DNA from: Planctomycetes bacterium syqfu
Lineage (GTDB): Bacteria > Planctomycetota > Phycisphaerae > Phycisphaerales > Phycisphaeraceae
Length of the DNA stretch: 64,000 nucleotides
Reading direction: 5' to 3'
NCBI GenBank assembly: GCA_020974905.1
Contig: CP087563.1
Span: 6,448,001-6,512,000, forward strand
Shown piece after piece: positions 11,598 through 14,936 of the stretch. Under the pieces are notes generated by a model. That model did no database searches. It saw nothing but the letters and a program-made list of their open reading frames with translations, and was not told the DNA's origin. Both the position numbers and the translations under genes were made by a program. Numbering within the stretch: the first letter of the stretch is position 1; every line of letters begins with the position of its first letter.

Positions 11598-12866
11598 TTA
11601 TTGGCCCAGGACACGCACATCCAGTGCGTTGTCTGCCAGTCCATCGAGGTACACCACCGCATAGCGCATGGCATCCATCCCGTGATCGTTGACCATGACA
11701 GGCGATTCTGAAATGTCTGTTCCGCGATGCCAGACGTATCCCGGGAACTCCTGGCAGGTCGAGGTTGGTTTTTGCTGCTCGATCAATCGTTGATCCGTCT
11801 GAATCAAACAGTCCTGCATGAGCATCAATCGCGGTTTGCCATCATCAGCTTTTTTTAAGCGCATGGTGACTGCCTGAATGCCGCTTCGCAGCGTTTTTTT
11901 AGCTAACGTGGTTGGGATGCCATACCGCTCAAGTGTCGCGCGGCCTTCGGCATCGTGGTCCGTGATGGTTGCTTCATAACTTTCACCTTCCGAGTGTTCG
12001 GCGATAGTTTGAGCGTGGTCTTCCACCAGGCCGTGACTCTGGTACAACTCGCGATATAAGATCATCCGGCCATCAGGATCAATGGCCCACCATTGACAGA
12101 CGAACGGGTTAGTGTAGCCAAAGTCAATACTGCGAATCCGCCTGTAATGCTCGGGGATTTTAACTTTTTCAATGACATGCACCGCCGGATCCCAAAGGTC
12201 ATAGACTGCACCTTCCTGGCCGGACCAAATGCCTTTGAACAAGCGGTCCCGGCGGACTCCGGTGAGTTGATTAAGCCGATTTTTGTAGGCATCAGTGACA
12301 TTGGGATTGTCATCATGCCGACTGAGTAATCGTACCATCTGACCGCGTTGTGCGCGCTGGTTCAGCCAGTGCGTCGGTGCATCGGGGTTCGTATCTGCAA
12401 TGGCCTGCTGGTAAGGCATCACACCATTACGCAGTCGGGTCAGTAATGATTCCCAATCGTCTTCCGTGAGTTCACGCGCTTCGAATGCAAAGATCATGTC
12501 ATACTCCGTGGACATAATCCGACTGGCACGATCCATTCCTGCGATGACCAGAACCGAGCCATTGGGATAGCGATAGCATTGGCGTTGACGGCGTGAGGGC
12601 CCTGTGAGCATCGGCCAACCATTGGGCAGAACTTTTTGCTCCAAGGTGACCATGACGGATTCGGTCATGGATTCGCGTGTTTTTCGCACGAGTAATGCAC
12701 GCATGCCCGGATACTTGATCGCACAGAGATTGGCTTTTTCAAGCAGTGCCCTTGTCTTACCTGTCCCCGCTGGACCTTCCATGAGTACTTCAGGCGACTT
12801 GCTGTACAGCAGGTCTTGTGCAACGCCAAAGGGGCGATAGGGTTTGTTGTCCGTTGTGTAGGTCAT
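11598..12866 (-). CDS. phage terminase large subunit (PBSX/Terminase_3 type)
   Basis: This 422-residue packaging motor has an N-terminal ATPase and a C-terminal RNase-H-like nuclease. Walker A is GPAGTGKT (31-38). The Walker B strand is YDMIFAFEARE (122-132), with Glu as general base. Nuclease acidic residues are likely Asp248 in SIDFGYTNP, Asp303/305 in ITDHDAEG and the late VNDHGMDAMRYA motif. Its ATG overlaps the stop of the small subunit gene. All catalytic motifs look intact, so this gene has probably remained functional or decayed only recently. Confidence 0.93.
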   Translation of the reverse strand: MTYTTDNKPYRPFGVAQDLLYSKSPEVLMEGPAGTGKTRALLEKANLCAIKYPGMRALLVRKTRESMTESVMVTLEQKVLPNGWPMLTGPSRRQRQCYRYPNGSVLVIAGMDRASRIMSTEYDMIFAFEARELTEDDWESLLTRLRNGVMPYQQAIADTNPDAPTHWLNQRAQRGQMVRLLSRHDDNPNVTDAYKNRLNQLTGVRRDRLFKGIWSGQEGAVYDLWDPAVHVIEKVKIPEHYRRIRSIDFGYTNPFVCQWWAIDPDGRMILYRELYQSHGLVEDHAQTIAEHSEGESYEATITDHDAEGRATLERYGIPTTLAKKTLRSGIQAVTMRLKKADDGKPRLMLMQDCLIQTDQRLIEQQKPTSTCQEFPGYVWHRGTDISESPVMVNDHGMDAMRYAVVYLDGLADNALDVRVLGQ

Positions 12867-13276
12867 ATCTTTTCGAGTTCCACTTCACTGATGACTTTGA
12901 CAAGCAGGTCGGTTGACTGTTTGGCCTTGATTTCATTGAGATTGCTGTTGAGCAGTTTGTGCTTGGTGTCAATGAGCTGTTTCCAACGGTCGATGGCTTT
13001 GTGATCACCATCGCGAACGCCTTTGGCCAAGGGCAAAAGCGCCATTTCAATTCGTTGCAGATCCACTGCCATTTCCAGGTCATAGGCATCTGCATTGGGG
13101 CTGACGATTGATCGGATATCCAGGAAAACGGTTTTGACACTCACGCCAACTGCCTGGGCGATTTGGGCATAGGTCATGCCTGCTTTGCGCATTTCCAGTT
13201 CACGCAGTCTGCGTTCGCGGAGGGCCTTGCCCCGATTGGTCAGTGTCTTGGTTTTCTTCTTTGGGGTGACTGTCAA
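12863..13276 (-). CDS. terminase small subunit-like HTH protein
   Basis: The 137-residue basic product has an N-terminal helix-turn-helix (GMTYAQIAQAVGVSVKTVFLDI, about 33-54, quoted in part) and a helical C-terminal half likely to oligomerise. This is the architecture of small terminases that recognise the packaging site. It starts with TTG, preceded by AAAGG at 8 bases and overlapping the stop of the ABC-GNAT gene, and ends overlapping the large terminase ATG. The call rests mainly on HTH plus position, since small terminases diverge rapidly. Confidence 0.75.
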   Translation of the reverse strand: MTVTPKKKTKTLTNRGKALRERRLRELEMRKAGMTYAQIAQAVGVSVKTVFLDIRSIVSPNADAYDLEMAVDLQRIEMALLPLAKGVRDGDHKAIDRWKQLIDTKHKLLNSNLNEIKAKQSTDLLVKVISEVELEKI

Positions 13277-14379
13277 TGCATTGCCTTTCGATATCGGAAC
13301 GATGCAGTCATGCGTCCGATGGAGCCGAATTTTTTACCAGTGCGAGCCAGGATGCCTTTATGTGCCTGACCGCATTTGACGACCTTGGTGCATCGCCATC
13401 GTTCGTTGCGTGACAAGCTGCGGATCAAAGCCGGATGTGACGTGACGATACTCACACGCATGGTTTGGGCTTCGTATTTGGCAATGCAATCAAGCAATGC
13501 TGTCCCGACGCCTAACCCTTGAAAGTCCGGTAAGACCACCAGGCGGTGGATCATGCGAAGGTCCTTTTGCCCGTACAAATGGAGTGTGGAGCAGAAGGCG
13601 ACGGGCTTGCCATCCCAAGTTGCCAGGTAACACCGAGCTGCCTTGTTGAGGTTGCTGCTCAGATAGTGATGACGCTTAAACAATCGCCATTGATCCTGCT
13701 TGCAGCCTCGGACTTGAAGTTCGATGGCTGGTCGCCGAACTGACCCCCAGTGCAGCGTTTGGTCTGCCATATCCAGATACCAATCCGGTTCAAGCCAATC
13801 GAGAATGTCGTAGTGACAGGTGATGGCAACAAACTTTTTGCATCGCGCCCGTCCAGCGCGCAATGTCTTGGCAACGGCAGCTGAACCAAAGCGAGCAACC
13901 TGACGATCCACCACGCTGGTAAACTCATCAAAAGCAACCAGTGGTTGATCCTTAAGCAGGGCATAGGCCAGATCACAACGGAACTTCTCCCCGTTACTCA
14001 AAACATGCCAGGGACGAATCCATGCTGGCGGTGAACTGAAGCCGACACTGTTGAGCATGGCGGTGACTTGTTTGCCCGGTAGCGATGCGTCGAACCCATC
14101 AATCACCGCTTTATCATGCGGCCAATCAACGCTGTCGAACATGCTTTGTGATGCGATGCAACCTTCCTCGCCAAAGGCATGTTTGGCAATTGTGCTTTTA
14201 CCTGAACCGGACGGCCCGACGATCGCGCCAATCGTCCAATTGCTGTCAAGACTTGGCAGTTCGACTTCAAATCGCTGGGTGCTTTTTTCCGAGAGTTGCA
14301 CATCGAAGAGACCTGCGACCTGGCGAACGCGGAAACTATCGAAGACTGGGGTTTGAACTAGAGCGTCAACACGCGGCAT
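13273..14379 (-). CDS. ABC-type ATPase fused to GNAT acyltransferase domain (COG2401-like)
   Basis: This 368-residue fusion has an ABC ATPase in residues 45-205: Walker A GPSGSGKS (55-62), a signature-like LSNGE (127-131), Walker B LVAFDEF (147-153) and switch His189 in ITCHYD. There are no membrane segments, so it is not a transporter. Residues 220-368 are a GNAT domain with HRLVVLPDFQGLGVGTALLD (279-298), where QGLGVG binds acyl-CoA. The combination matches the rare soluble class annotated as ABC-type ATPase with predicted acetyltransferase domain. It lies between a ParB-like gene, overlapped by 22 bases, and the terminase genes. DNA modification or packaging control is plausible, but the substrate is unknown. 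Confidence 0.8.
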   Translation of the reverse strand: MPRVDALVQTPVFDSFRVRQVAGLFDVQLSEKSTQRFEVELPSLDSNWTIGAIVGPSGSGKSTIAKHAFGEEGCIASQSMFDSVDWPHDKAVIDGFDASLPGKQVTAMLNSVGFSSPPAWIRPWHVLSNGEKFRCDLAYALLKDQPLVAFDEFTSVVDRQVARFGSAAVAKTLRAGRARCKKFVAITCHYDILDWLEPDWYLDMADQTLHWGSVRRPAIELQVRGCKQDQWRLFKRHHYLSSNLNKAARCYLATWDGKPVAFCSTLHLYGQKDLRMIHRLVVLPDFQGLGVGTALLDCIAKYEAQTMRVSIVTSHPALIRSLSRNERWRCTKVVKCGQAHKGILARTGKKFGSIGRMTASFRYRKAMH

Positions 14380-14936
14380 TGAAATCCCTCCTCATCCAGG
14401 CGTTCAAAAAGCTGTTTCTGTTGCGATTCGTCTTCACATGCAACCAGGACCTGATAGCTGTCAGGGATTGCGACATCGCGCATCGACTCGTCTTCAATCT
14501 GCATGGCTTTGTTGATGGCATCCTCAATCTGGGAATCATCAAAACCAGTGGTCAGATGGTCGAAATCCATCTCGTTCTGCAGGATTGCCAACTGCTGGGC
14601 GAGTTTGTCCATGTCCCAATCACTGGTGTCGGTGGTGCGGTTGTCGGCGATAGCGTAGGCACGGGCGCTGGAGCCGGAAAGGCCGGTTGTCACAGCAGCA
14701 AGATGGGTCCAGCCCAACGCCCGTGCCGCCAGTAGGGTGCCGTTCCCGGCCAGGCAGGTGTGGTGCTTGTCGATGACGATGGGTTTCTGTTGACCAAAGG
14801 CTTCGAGACTGCATTTGATGGCGTCAAGGTTTTGATCAGGATGCTTGCGAACGTTGTCCTGGTCGTTGTGAATCTGGCCGATGGGAACTGCAAGAGGTCG
14901 AAGGGAAGGTTCGATGTGTTGAAGGTGGTTTGCCAT
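14358..14936 (-). CDS. ParB/sulfiredoxin-like N-terminal domain protein
   Basis: The 192-residue product carries a ParB-type domain in its first 105 residues: PIGQIHNDQDNVRKHPDQNL, LEAFGQQKPIVI and the AGNGTLLAARALGW loop (63-76), where chromosomal ParB has GERRxRA. The Arg of that box is replaced by Thr. No ParB HTH or CTP-type C-terminal domain follows. Instead there is an acidic helical tail ending in a small alpha/beta unit (QVLVACEDESQQKQLFERLD). Phage relatives are often next to or fused with DNA methyltransferases. Here the partner is the ABC-GNAT gene that overlaps it. Segregation is unlikely, and nuclease or DNA-modification roles are possible. Confidence 0.8.
   Translation of the reverse strand: MANHLQHIEPSLRPLAVPIGQIHNDQDNVRKHPDQNLDAIKCSLEAFGQQKPIVIDKHHTCLAGNGTLLAARALGWTHLAAVTTGLSGSSARAYAIADNRTTDTSDWDMDKLAQQLAILQNEMDFDHLTTGFDDSQIEDAINKAMQIEDESMRDVAIPDSYQVLVACEDESQQKQLFERLDEEGFQCRVLTL

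Follow-up and report, generated by a model that had tools for sequence, protein, structure and literature searches.

The locus described here raises the question of what is modified by an enzyme in which an ABC ATPase and a GNAT domain are fused, and why its gene overlaps that of a ParB-like protein. The two genes immediately precede the terminase genes in a stretch of 64,000 nucleotides from Planctomycetes bacterium syqfu (contig CP087563.1, positions 6,448,001 to 6,512,000), here called the window. It appears fairly probable that, in a temperate phage, the ParB-like protein and the soluble ABC ATPase-GNAT fusion (ABC-GNAT) work as one machine that modifies (acylates) DNA bases. An independent reason to expect a DNA substrate is that the partner enzyme beside this one ParB family is exchanged between loci.

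ParB-like and ABC-GNAT genes as a conserved phage module

A sequence-only reading of the window had described a ParB-like gene overlapping a gene for a P-loop ATPase joined to a GNAT domain, and both open reading frames (ORFs) were recovered with their overlap of 22 nt (Table 1). Profile searches and structure prediction, which that reading had called for, found both domains in the ABC-GNAT protein. Matches above the Pfam cut-offs were obtained to ABC_tran (E=1.4e-8) and Acetyltransf_1 (E=1.3e-9), and PHROG 11143 spans residues 10–363 (E=1.8e-103), a full-length family match. As is required of this family, ABC is followed by GNAT in the window protein, and its ATPase and acyl-CoA motifs are intact. 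The predicted model (mean predicted local distance difference test, pLDDT, of 90.3; predicted template modelling score, pTM, of 0.80) has ABC nucleotide-binding domains (NBDs) and GNATs as its fold matches, and the top 19-residue hydropathy of 1.34 gives no sign of a transmembrane segment.

Besides Walker A, the ATPase part contains the signature LSNGE (residues 127–131), Walker B DE (151–152), the D-loop SVVDR (155–159) and the switch H189. Conservation was counted over 170 of 186 sequences, 117 of them representatives at 72% identity. L127, S128, G130, D151, E152, S155, D158, R159 and H189 are kept in all 170 relatives, the signature positions N129 and E131 are variable, and the key GNAT residues are conserved as strictly as those of the ATPase. 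Purifying selection acts on both genes, and they are not chance ORFs, since the ratio of non-synonymous to synonymous substitution rates (dN/dS) is low for each: 0.09–0.12 for ABC-GNAT (four usable of five comparisons) and 0.08–0.19 for the ParB-like gene (three usable of five), values that are rough because dS exceeds 1 in several comparisons.

From viral contigs, genomes and phage records, with the best 80 loci taken from each scan, 186 fusion loci were gathered. After omission of the 17 with <600 bp upstream, a ParB-like gene was found immediately upstream of ABC-GNAT in 158 of 169 relatives; this count is partly redundant (L007/L158, L009/L160 and L011/L162 are the same contigs) and becomes 145 of 155 when taken per group at 90% identity. 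Among the exceptions, L083 and L228 carry ParB, ABC and GNAT in one ORF, and ParB lies somewhat further upstream in L011, L162 and L125 and further away in L207. The identical 22-nt overlap recurs in 66 of 165 pairs, including phages of Pseudoalteromonas, Streptococcus and Lactococcus, which belong to other phyla. The ABC-GNAT family was detected in 68 of 50,697 phage records (E 1e-5), 47 of these with ≥80% coverage, from hosts of several phyla; some of the weaker matches span the ABC part only. Its spread in the host's phylum is patchy (17 of 294 genomes), and among the best 80 of 427 genome matches the closest were from Phycisphaeraceae and other planctomycetes, with 93% identity in L075, in line with a planctomycete host. 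ParB and ABC-GNAT therefore constitute a conserved phage module. No published report of the pairing, the partner range or the frameshift treated below was found in excerpts of PMC7824862, PMC12839542, PMC10853773, PMC5512222, PMC12373910, PMC12707154 and PMC5219037; doi 10.1093/nar/gkt573 may hold them. In Pseudoalteromonas phage SL25 (L020:4522-6068) both genes are missing from the annotation of the record.

Partner enzymes of the ParB family

The ParB-like protein matches PHROG 498 (E=1.5e-30) as well as PHROG 620 (Table 1), and fits phage ParB-like proteins that are linked to DNA base modifiers. A partition function was considered and rejected, as the cut-offs of the ParB/Spo0J partition CTPases were reached neither with Pfam ParB_N (16.2 bits versus 26.3) nor with TIGR00180 (Table 1).

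A search of viral contigs with this protein and an alignment of ten of its relatives (four ABC-GNAT-linked, one methylase-fused), of which the alignment search retained its best 80 loci, gave 92 ParB loci, a set that excludes L001, which has ABC-GNAT. These comprise 47 with a fused methylase motif, 13 with ABC-GNAT, 7 with Mom and 25 others, where ABC-GNAT and Mom denote a match anywhere in the locus, the seven Mom next genes having then been confirmed. All 47 fused motifs match PF01555. A Pfam scan of the next genes or own extensions of 22 of the 25 others (L264, L073 and L064 being left out), together with the seven Mom genes, returned seven C5 cytosine methylases, seven Mom, four TET-associated glycosyltransferases, two N6/N4 methylases, one GIY-YIG and others; the scan gives no per-member list, and its fourth glycosyltransferase and second N6/N4 methylase are not tied to a locus. 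By this family tally, a known DNA base-modifying enzyme is fused or adjacent in 67 of the 79 ParB loci without ABC-GNAT, and 65 of the 67 were confirmed locus by locus (47, 7, 7, 3 and 1). Upstream neighbours served as a control: of the 66 neighbours, drawn from 66 of the 67 loci with ≥700 bp upstream, none matched the four base-modifier families.

The exchange of partners is recent, as two of the groups formed at 90% ParB identity by single linkage hold differing partners, for example a glycosyltransferase (L270), Mom (L279) and a fused methylase (L296 and L297). ParB overlaps Mom by 8 nt in Microbacterium phage Appa and is separated from it by one gene in Arthrobacter phage Martha, and the ParBs of both phages match the partner-ParB profile. 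ABC-GNAT thus occupies a slot beside ParB that is otherwise filled mostly by DNA base modifiers. It is by this route that the base modification proposed in the sequence-only reading gains support, since the relatives of this ParB are accompanied by N6/N4 or C5 methylases, by Mom or by TET-associated glycosyltransferases. The likeness to Mom on which the proposal had been built did not stand, the GNAT having a canonical QGLGVG motif and matching general GNAT families.

The ParB-like protein had also been said to keep an AGNG loop without the usual Arg, and this is correct: in AGNGTLLAA (residues 63–71) the Arg of GxGR is replaced by Thr. The AGNGT loop thus departs from the conserved Arg box of ParB/Spo0J. 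As a special feature of the window protein the missing Arg was rejected, because the loop varies among the 165 ParB partners of ABC-GNAT (LIDGH in 49, AGHGR in 21, AGNGT in 17, and others) and loops without Arg recur across the family, being common in methylase-type relatives.

The C-terminal tail (Table 1) is present in 157 of the 165 ABC-GNAT partners, in none of the 47 methylase-fused and none of the 7 Mom-linked ParBs, and in 2 of the 25 others. Because the motif was derived from columns conserved in these very 165 sequences, the weight of the comparison lies in its absence from the 47 methylase-fused and the 7 Mom-linked ParBs. Judged from sequence, the tail is a candidate for a partner-specific docking segment. 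At one locus (L063:3982-4707) a gene of GIY-YIG type, a match assigned to this locus by eye, follows a ParB with the ABC-GNAT-type tail where there is no ABC-GNAT gene. Three Streptococcus phage loci (L023:3504-4022, L329:104-622 and L330:104-622) hold a short ParB-like gene annotated as a DNA modification methylase.

Table 1. Positions of the two genes, their motifs and adjacent features in the window, and of split forms in relatives (prefixed by locus)
Feature	Position	Strand	Evidence or remark
ParB/Srx-like protein, 192 aa	14358..14936	minus	PHROG 620 E=3e-36; NCBIfam TIGR00180 20.7 bits vs cut-off 58.45
Soluble ABC ATPase-GNAT fusion, 368 aa	13273..14379	minus	PHROG 11143
Overlap of ParB and ABC-GNAT genes, 22 nt	14358..14379	minus	
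AGNG loop, ParB residues 63-66, followed by Thr instead of Arg	14739..14750	minus	sequence
ParB C-terminal tail C-x2-E-x2-Q ... G-x2-C-R, residues 167-188	14373..14438	minus	candidate docking segment
ABC ATPase part, ~residues 1-205	13765..14379	minus	fold match to ABC NBDs
Walker A GPSGSGKS, residues 55-62	14194..14217	minus	G55, S57, G60, K61 in 170/170 aligned relatives
GNAT part, residues 212-368	13276..13746	minus	Pfam Acetyltransf_1; model m63099ffd842d, mean pLDDT 89.9; GNAT fold matches
HHY motif, residues 237-239	13663..13671	minus	H238 and Y239 170/170; H237 149/170
Acyl-CoA motif QGLGVG, residues 287-292	13504..13521	minus	Q287 169, G288 170, G290 169, G292 157 of 170
HTH protein, small-terminase position	12863..13276	minus	Pfam HTH_23, PHROG 645
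Terminase large subunit	11598..12866	minus	Pfam Terminase_3 1.6e-9; PHROG 2 2.5e-37
Split ABC/GNAT, long overlap open in both frames	L325:4576-4678, L023:4576-4678, L326:1173-1278, L327:2079-2181, L328:1953-2088, others		

The substrate of the GNAT domain

Mom of phage Mu (PF25680; 8bv8) is a base modifier of the GNAT superfamily, relatives of Mom also adjoin this ParB family, and an invariant HY pair is found in both the Mom and the ABC-GNAT families. Comparison with Mom-type proteins, which had been suggested as a check, nevertheless showed that the GNAT is not a Mom. Homology was rejected on the basis of a profile probability of 0.6% (hhalign against ten Mom proteins), no PF25680 match up to E=1 in a Pfam library that includes this family, and different invariant residues, D139, Y149 and H173 of Mom having no counterparts among the invariant GNAT positions when compared by eye. 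Mom is also without the QxxGxG motif, and Mu Mom is without an ABC domain. A Pfam scan of 46 relatives matched six families, all of them GNAT, with Mom not among them; 8bv8 was absent from the best 50 fold matches of the GNAT, which excludes nothing.

Taken alone, the GNAT gave many tied matches to ordinary GNATs among these best 50, including RimI, Ard1 and several small-molecule enzymes; examples are 1y9k_B (Z 14.7, root-mean-square deviation, rmsd, 3.8, 138 aligned) and RimI 2cnm_A (Z 14.2, rmsd 2.4, 130 aligned). The main rival to a DNA substrate is accordingly a protein: the GNAT would acetylate a host or phage protein such as RNA polymerase, terminase or a DNA-bound protein, and ABC and ParB would place it on DNA. 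The tied positions of RimI and Ard1 and the canonical acyl-CoA motif are consistent with this, and RNA polymerase is known to be modified by one phage GNAT, Rac (excerpt of PMC7824862). We regard a protein substrate as unlikely, however, given that the partner slot of ParB is otherwise held mostly by DNA base modifiers and that likeness of GNAT folds gives no substrate, small-molecule GNATs scoring equally. The sequence-only reading had named in advance what would speak against base modification, namely an acetyltransferase site that is both intact and of established protein or small-molecule substrate. Of these two features only the first, an intact acyl-CoA site, is present, so this objection does not arise.

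Distinctly less probable is that tRNA or free nucleotides are the target of the module, or that it is a host-takeover or toxin-like enzyme, phage DNA being left untouched. GNATs have many substrates, and in RNA cytidine acetyltransferases of the NAT10/TmcA type a nucleobase is acetylated by a GNAT linked to an ATPase, the ATPase being of helicase type and the substrate RNA. These enzymes provide a works-like analogy only, with a marginal sequence match (E=0.037). Pfam GNAT_acetyltr_2 was matched in 2 of the 46 relatives (best E=0.0022), and a tRNA-methyltransferase is annotated beside the pair in one phage (L027). Such matches are marginal only, however, and the pairing of ParB with DNA-modifying partners points to DNA.

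An uncharacterised acyl modification of a DNA base has already been predicted in print for a GNAT coupled to an ABC ATPase, an excerpt of PMC7824862 giving Tenacibaculum phage pT24 as an example and crediting a 2013 paper of Iyer and colleagues; the partner swap and the frameshift of relatives are the new leads. The pT24 genome has a tblastn match to the window protein with 37% identity over 87% of the query, this match being a genomic region that is not equated with the protein accession named in that source. It differs from the window in that a stop codon separates ABC from GNAT and no ParB was detected beside it. In this region (L022:3974-5146) ABC and GNAT are in the same frame with TGA between them and are annotated as two genes.

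Two other known systems bear comparison. ParB-methylase fusions such as Bacillus cereus Bce_0392 (excerpt of PMC5512222), likened here by description and with no membership in this ParB subfamily implied, likewise combine a ParB-like domain with a DNA base modifier, as do the 47 such loci found here. They differ in having an N6/N4 methylase in one chain with a ParB that lacks the C-terminal tail. Dnd phosphorothioation also brings together an ABC ATPase (DndD), a ParB-superfamily protein (DndB) and a DNA modifier (excerpt of PMC10853773). Its chemistry, however, places sulphur in the backbone, and it uses an ABC of the DndD/CxC clade together with DndE, neither of which was seen at the window locus; no DndC or DndE family was among the matches of the prophage ORFs scanned.

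A number of points weigh against a DNA base-modifying machine. The functional evidence is association throughout, and the GNAT has no profile similarity to Mom. By fold it resembles the protein acetyltransferases RimI and Ard1 and also small-molecule GNATs, and RimI-like GNATs of other phage proteins are taken as likely protein-acting in an excerpt of PMC5512222. The 92 ParB loci are partly redundant, representing 76 groups at 90% ParB identity, and for 12 of the 79 the tally shows no recognised base modifier; these 12 comprise tandem or own ParB, one GIY-YIG gene, two methyltransferase-like and two unclassified cases and the three not submitted to Pfam, among which L264 is a C5 methylase by local profile. 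General methyltransferase families were matched by 4 of the 66 upstream neighbours. No ParB was detected at five ABC-GNAT loci (L012, L022, L024, L113 and L144), and for this reason ParB may not be essential. A position ahead of terminase is likewise not borne out as a general rule: a large terminase was found ≤4 kb downstream in at least 30 of 156 ABC-GNAT loci, a lower bound as detection relied on homology to seven large-terminase query sequences.

Packaging genes, a likely frameshift in relatives and a proposed mechanism

In the window itself the pair does stand directly ahead of the terminase genes, as the sequence-only reading had it. The next gene encodes a helix-turn-helix (HTH) protein (13276–12863) and overlaps ABC-GNAT by 4 nt, its small-terminase label deriving from its position ahead of the large terminase. 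The gene order then continues with large terminase, portal, protease and capsid, connector-type genes extend to 6157, and a Peptidase_S24/HTH repressor is found at 1592–2242. On the opposite side, from 16833, there are argJ- and aldolase-like host genes (ORF translations, by eye). Based on these packaging, capsid and connector genes, the repressor, and the host-like genes on the other side, the region looks like the prophage of a temperate phage, in a host genome of 7.38 Mb.

One possible reading of this position is a packaging or partition device, in which ParB would mark phage DNA, the ABC ATPase would work with the terminase and the GNAT would be secondary. The pair is close ahead of terminase genes not only in the window but also in SL25, P335, LE3 and Axumite. 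In pT24 and P12024S, however, no terminase gene is annotated within 4 kb, and Jace has its small terminase ~2.9 kb downstream, with the large terminase at the other end of the record. With the detection described above, a large terminase lay ≤4 kb downstream in at least 5 of 41 ParB-methylase loci and at least 1 of 7 ParB-Mom loci. No ParA family was among the matches of the prophage ORFs scanned, and a secondary role for the GNAT sits poorly with key residues as strictly conserved as those of the ATPase. Such a device is therefore very improbable. The role in self/non-self discrimination during packaging that had been proposed for the pair has positional support only.

In the scheme we infer for a base-modifying machine, the ParB-like protein would be a DNA-handling adaptor, binding phage DNA or scanning along it and bringing in the modifying enzyme by means of its C-terminal tail. 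With ATP, the ABC domains would form a dimer that clamps the DNA or shifts its position, and the fused GNAT would move an acyl group from acyl-CoA onto an exocyclic amino group of a base. As the genes are directly ahead of the terminase genes, modification may occur late, just before packaging, and the modified DNA would resist host restriction in the next cell.

The ABC-GNAT gene of the window is in a single frame. Among 93 loci around the Lactococcus and Streptococcus forms, the GNAT and ABC frames are the same in 51 and different in 40, with no GNAT near in 2. In 34 of the 40 the GNAT is in the -1 frame and overlaps the ABC frame, and in 22 of these 34 no ATG, GTG or TTG occurs in the GNAT frame before the invariant HY pair, so that separate translation from such a start would lose this pair. 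A canonical X XXY YYZ heptamer was found in the ABC frame 60–95 nt before the HHY codons in 19 of 29 distinct split sequences (the 29 forming 10 groups at 60% identity). Other comparable windows of these frames hold 0.077 such heptamers on average, and 4 of 50 same-frame relatives have one. Against a frameshift, 10 of the 29 (the Streptococcus/Lactococcus group) have no canonical heptamer there, partly with a T5 run instead, 6 of the 40 depart from the -1 pattern, and some cases could be artefacts of homopolymer errors in metagenome contigs. The split is present in the isolates P335, Javan523, MismyG, Vinitor-27 and Enterococcus phage 9184, of which only Vinitor-27 and 9184 have the canonical heptamer. 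From these sequences, a programmed -1 frameshift is likely in relatives.

A few genes directly downstream of ABC-GNAT can also be mentioned. A Pfam ASCH gene is found there in 3 of 135 loci (L327:2617-2985 is annotated as ASCH), and as the ASCH protein YqfB hydrolyses N4-acylated cytosines (excerpt of PMC12707154), it is a lead, by analogy, that this neighbour may be a reader or eraser of an acylated base. A formyl transferase directly follows in 2 of 135 loci (L025:5110-5727 is annotated as formyltransferase) and two CoA transferase families have one match each; these neighbours, in small numbers, possibly hint at another acyl donor.

A wider model can be offered tentatively, as one that may well not hold in full. 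One ParB-like adaptor would be a common phage loader for many base modifiers (methylases, Mom, glycosyltransferases and ABC-GNAT), its docking tails being partner-specific; ABC-GNAT would be ATP-gated and make an undescribed acylated base; and in several lineages a programmed -1 ribosomal frameshift would set the ratio of ABC alone to ABC-GNAT, limiting a modification that is possibly harmful to the host. Isolates suited to testing are Pseudoalteromonas phage SL25, Rhodococcus phage Jace and Lactococcus phage P335. If base acylation by this pair is true, an acylated base and an ATP-dependent mechanism would be added to phage DNA modification, and the ParB-like adaptor would become a marker for finding more modification enzymes.

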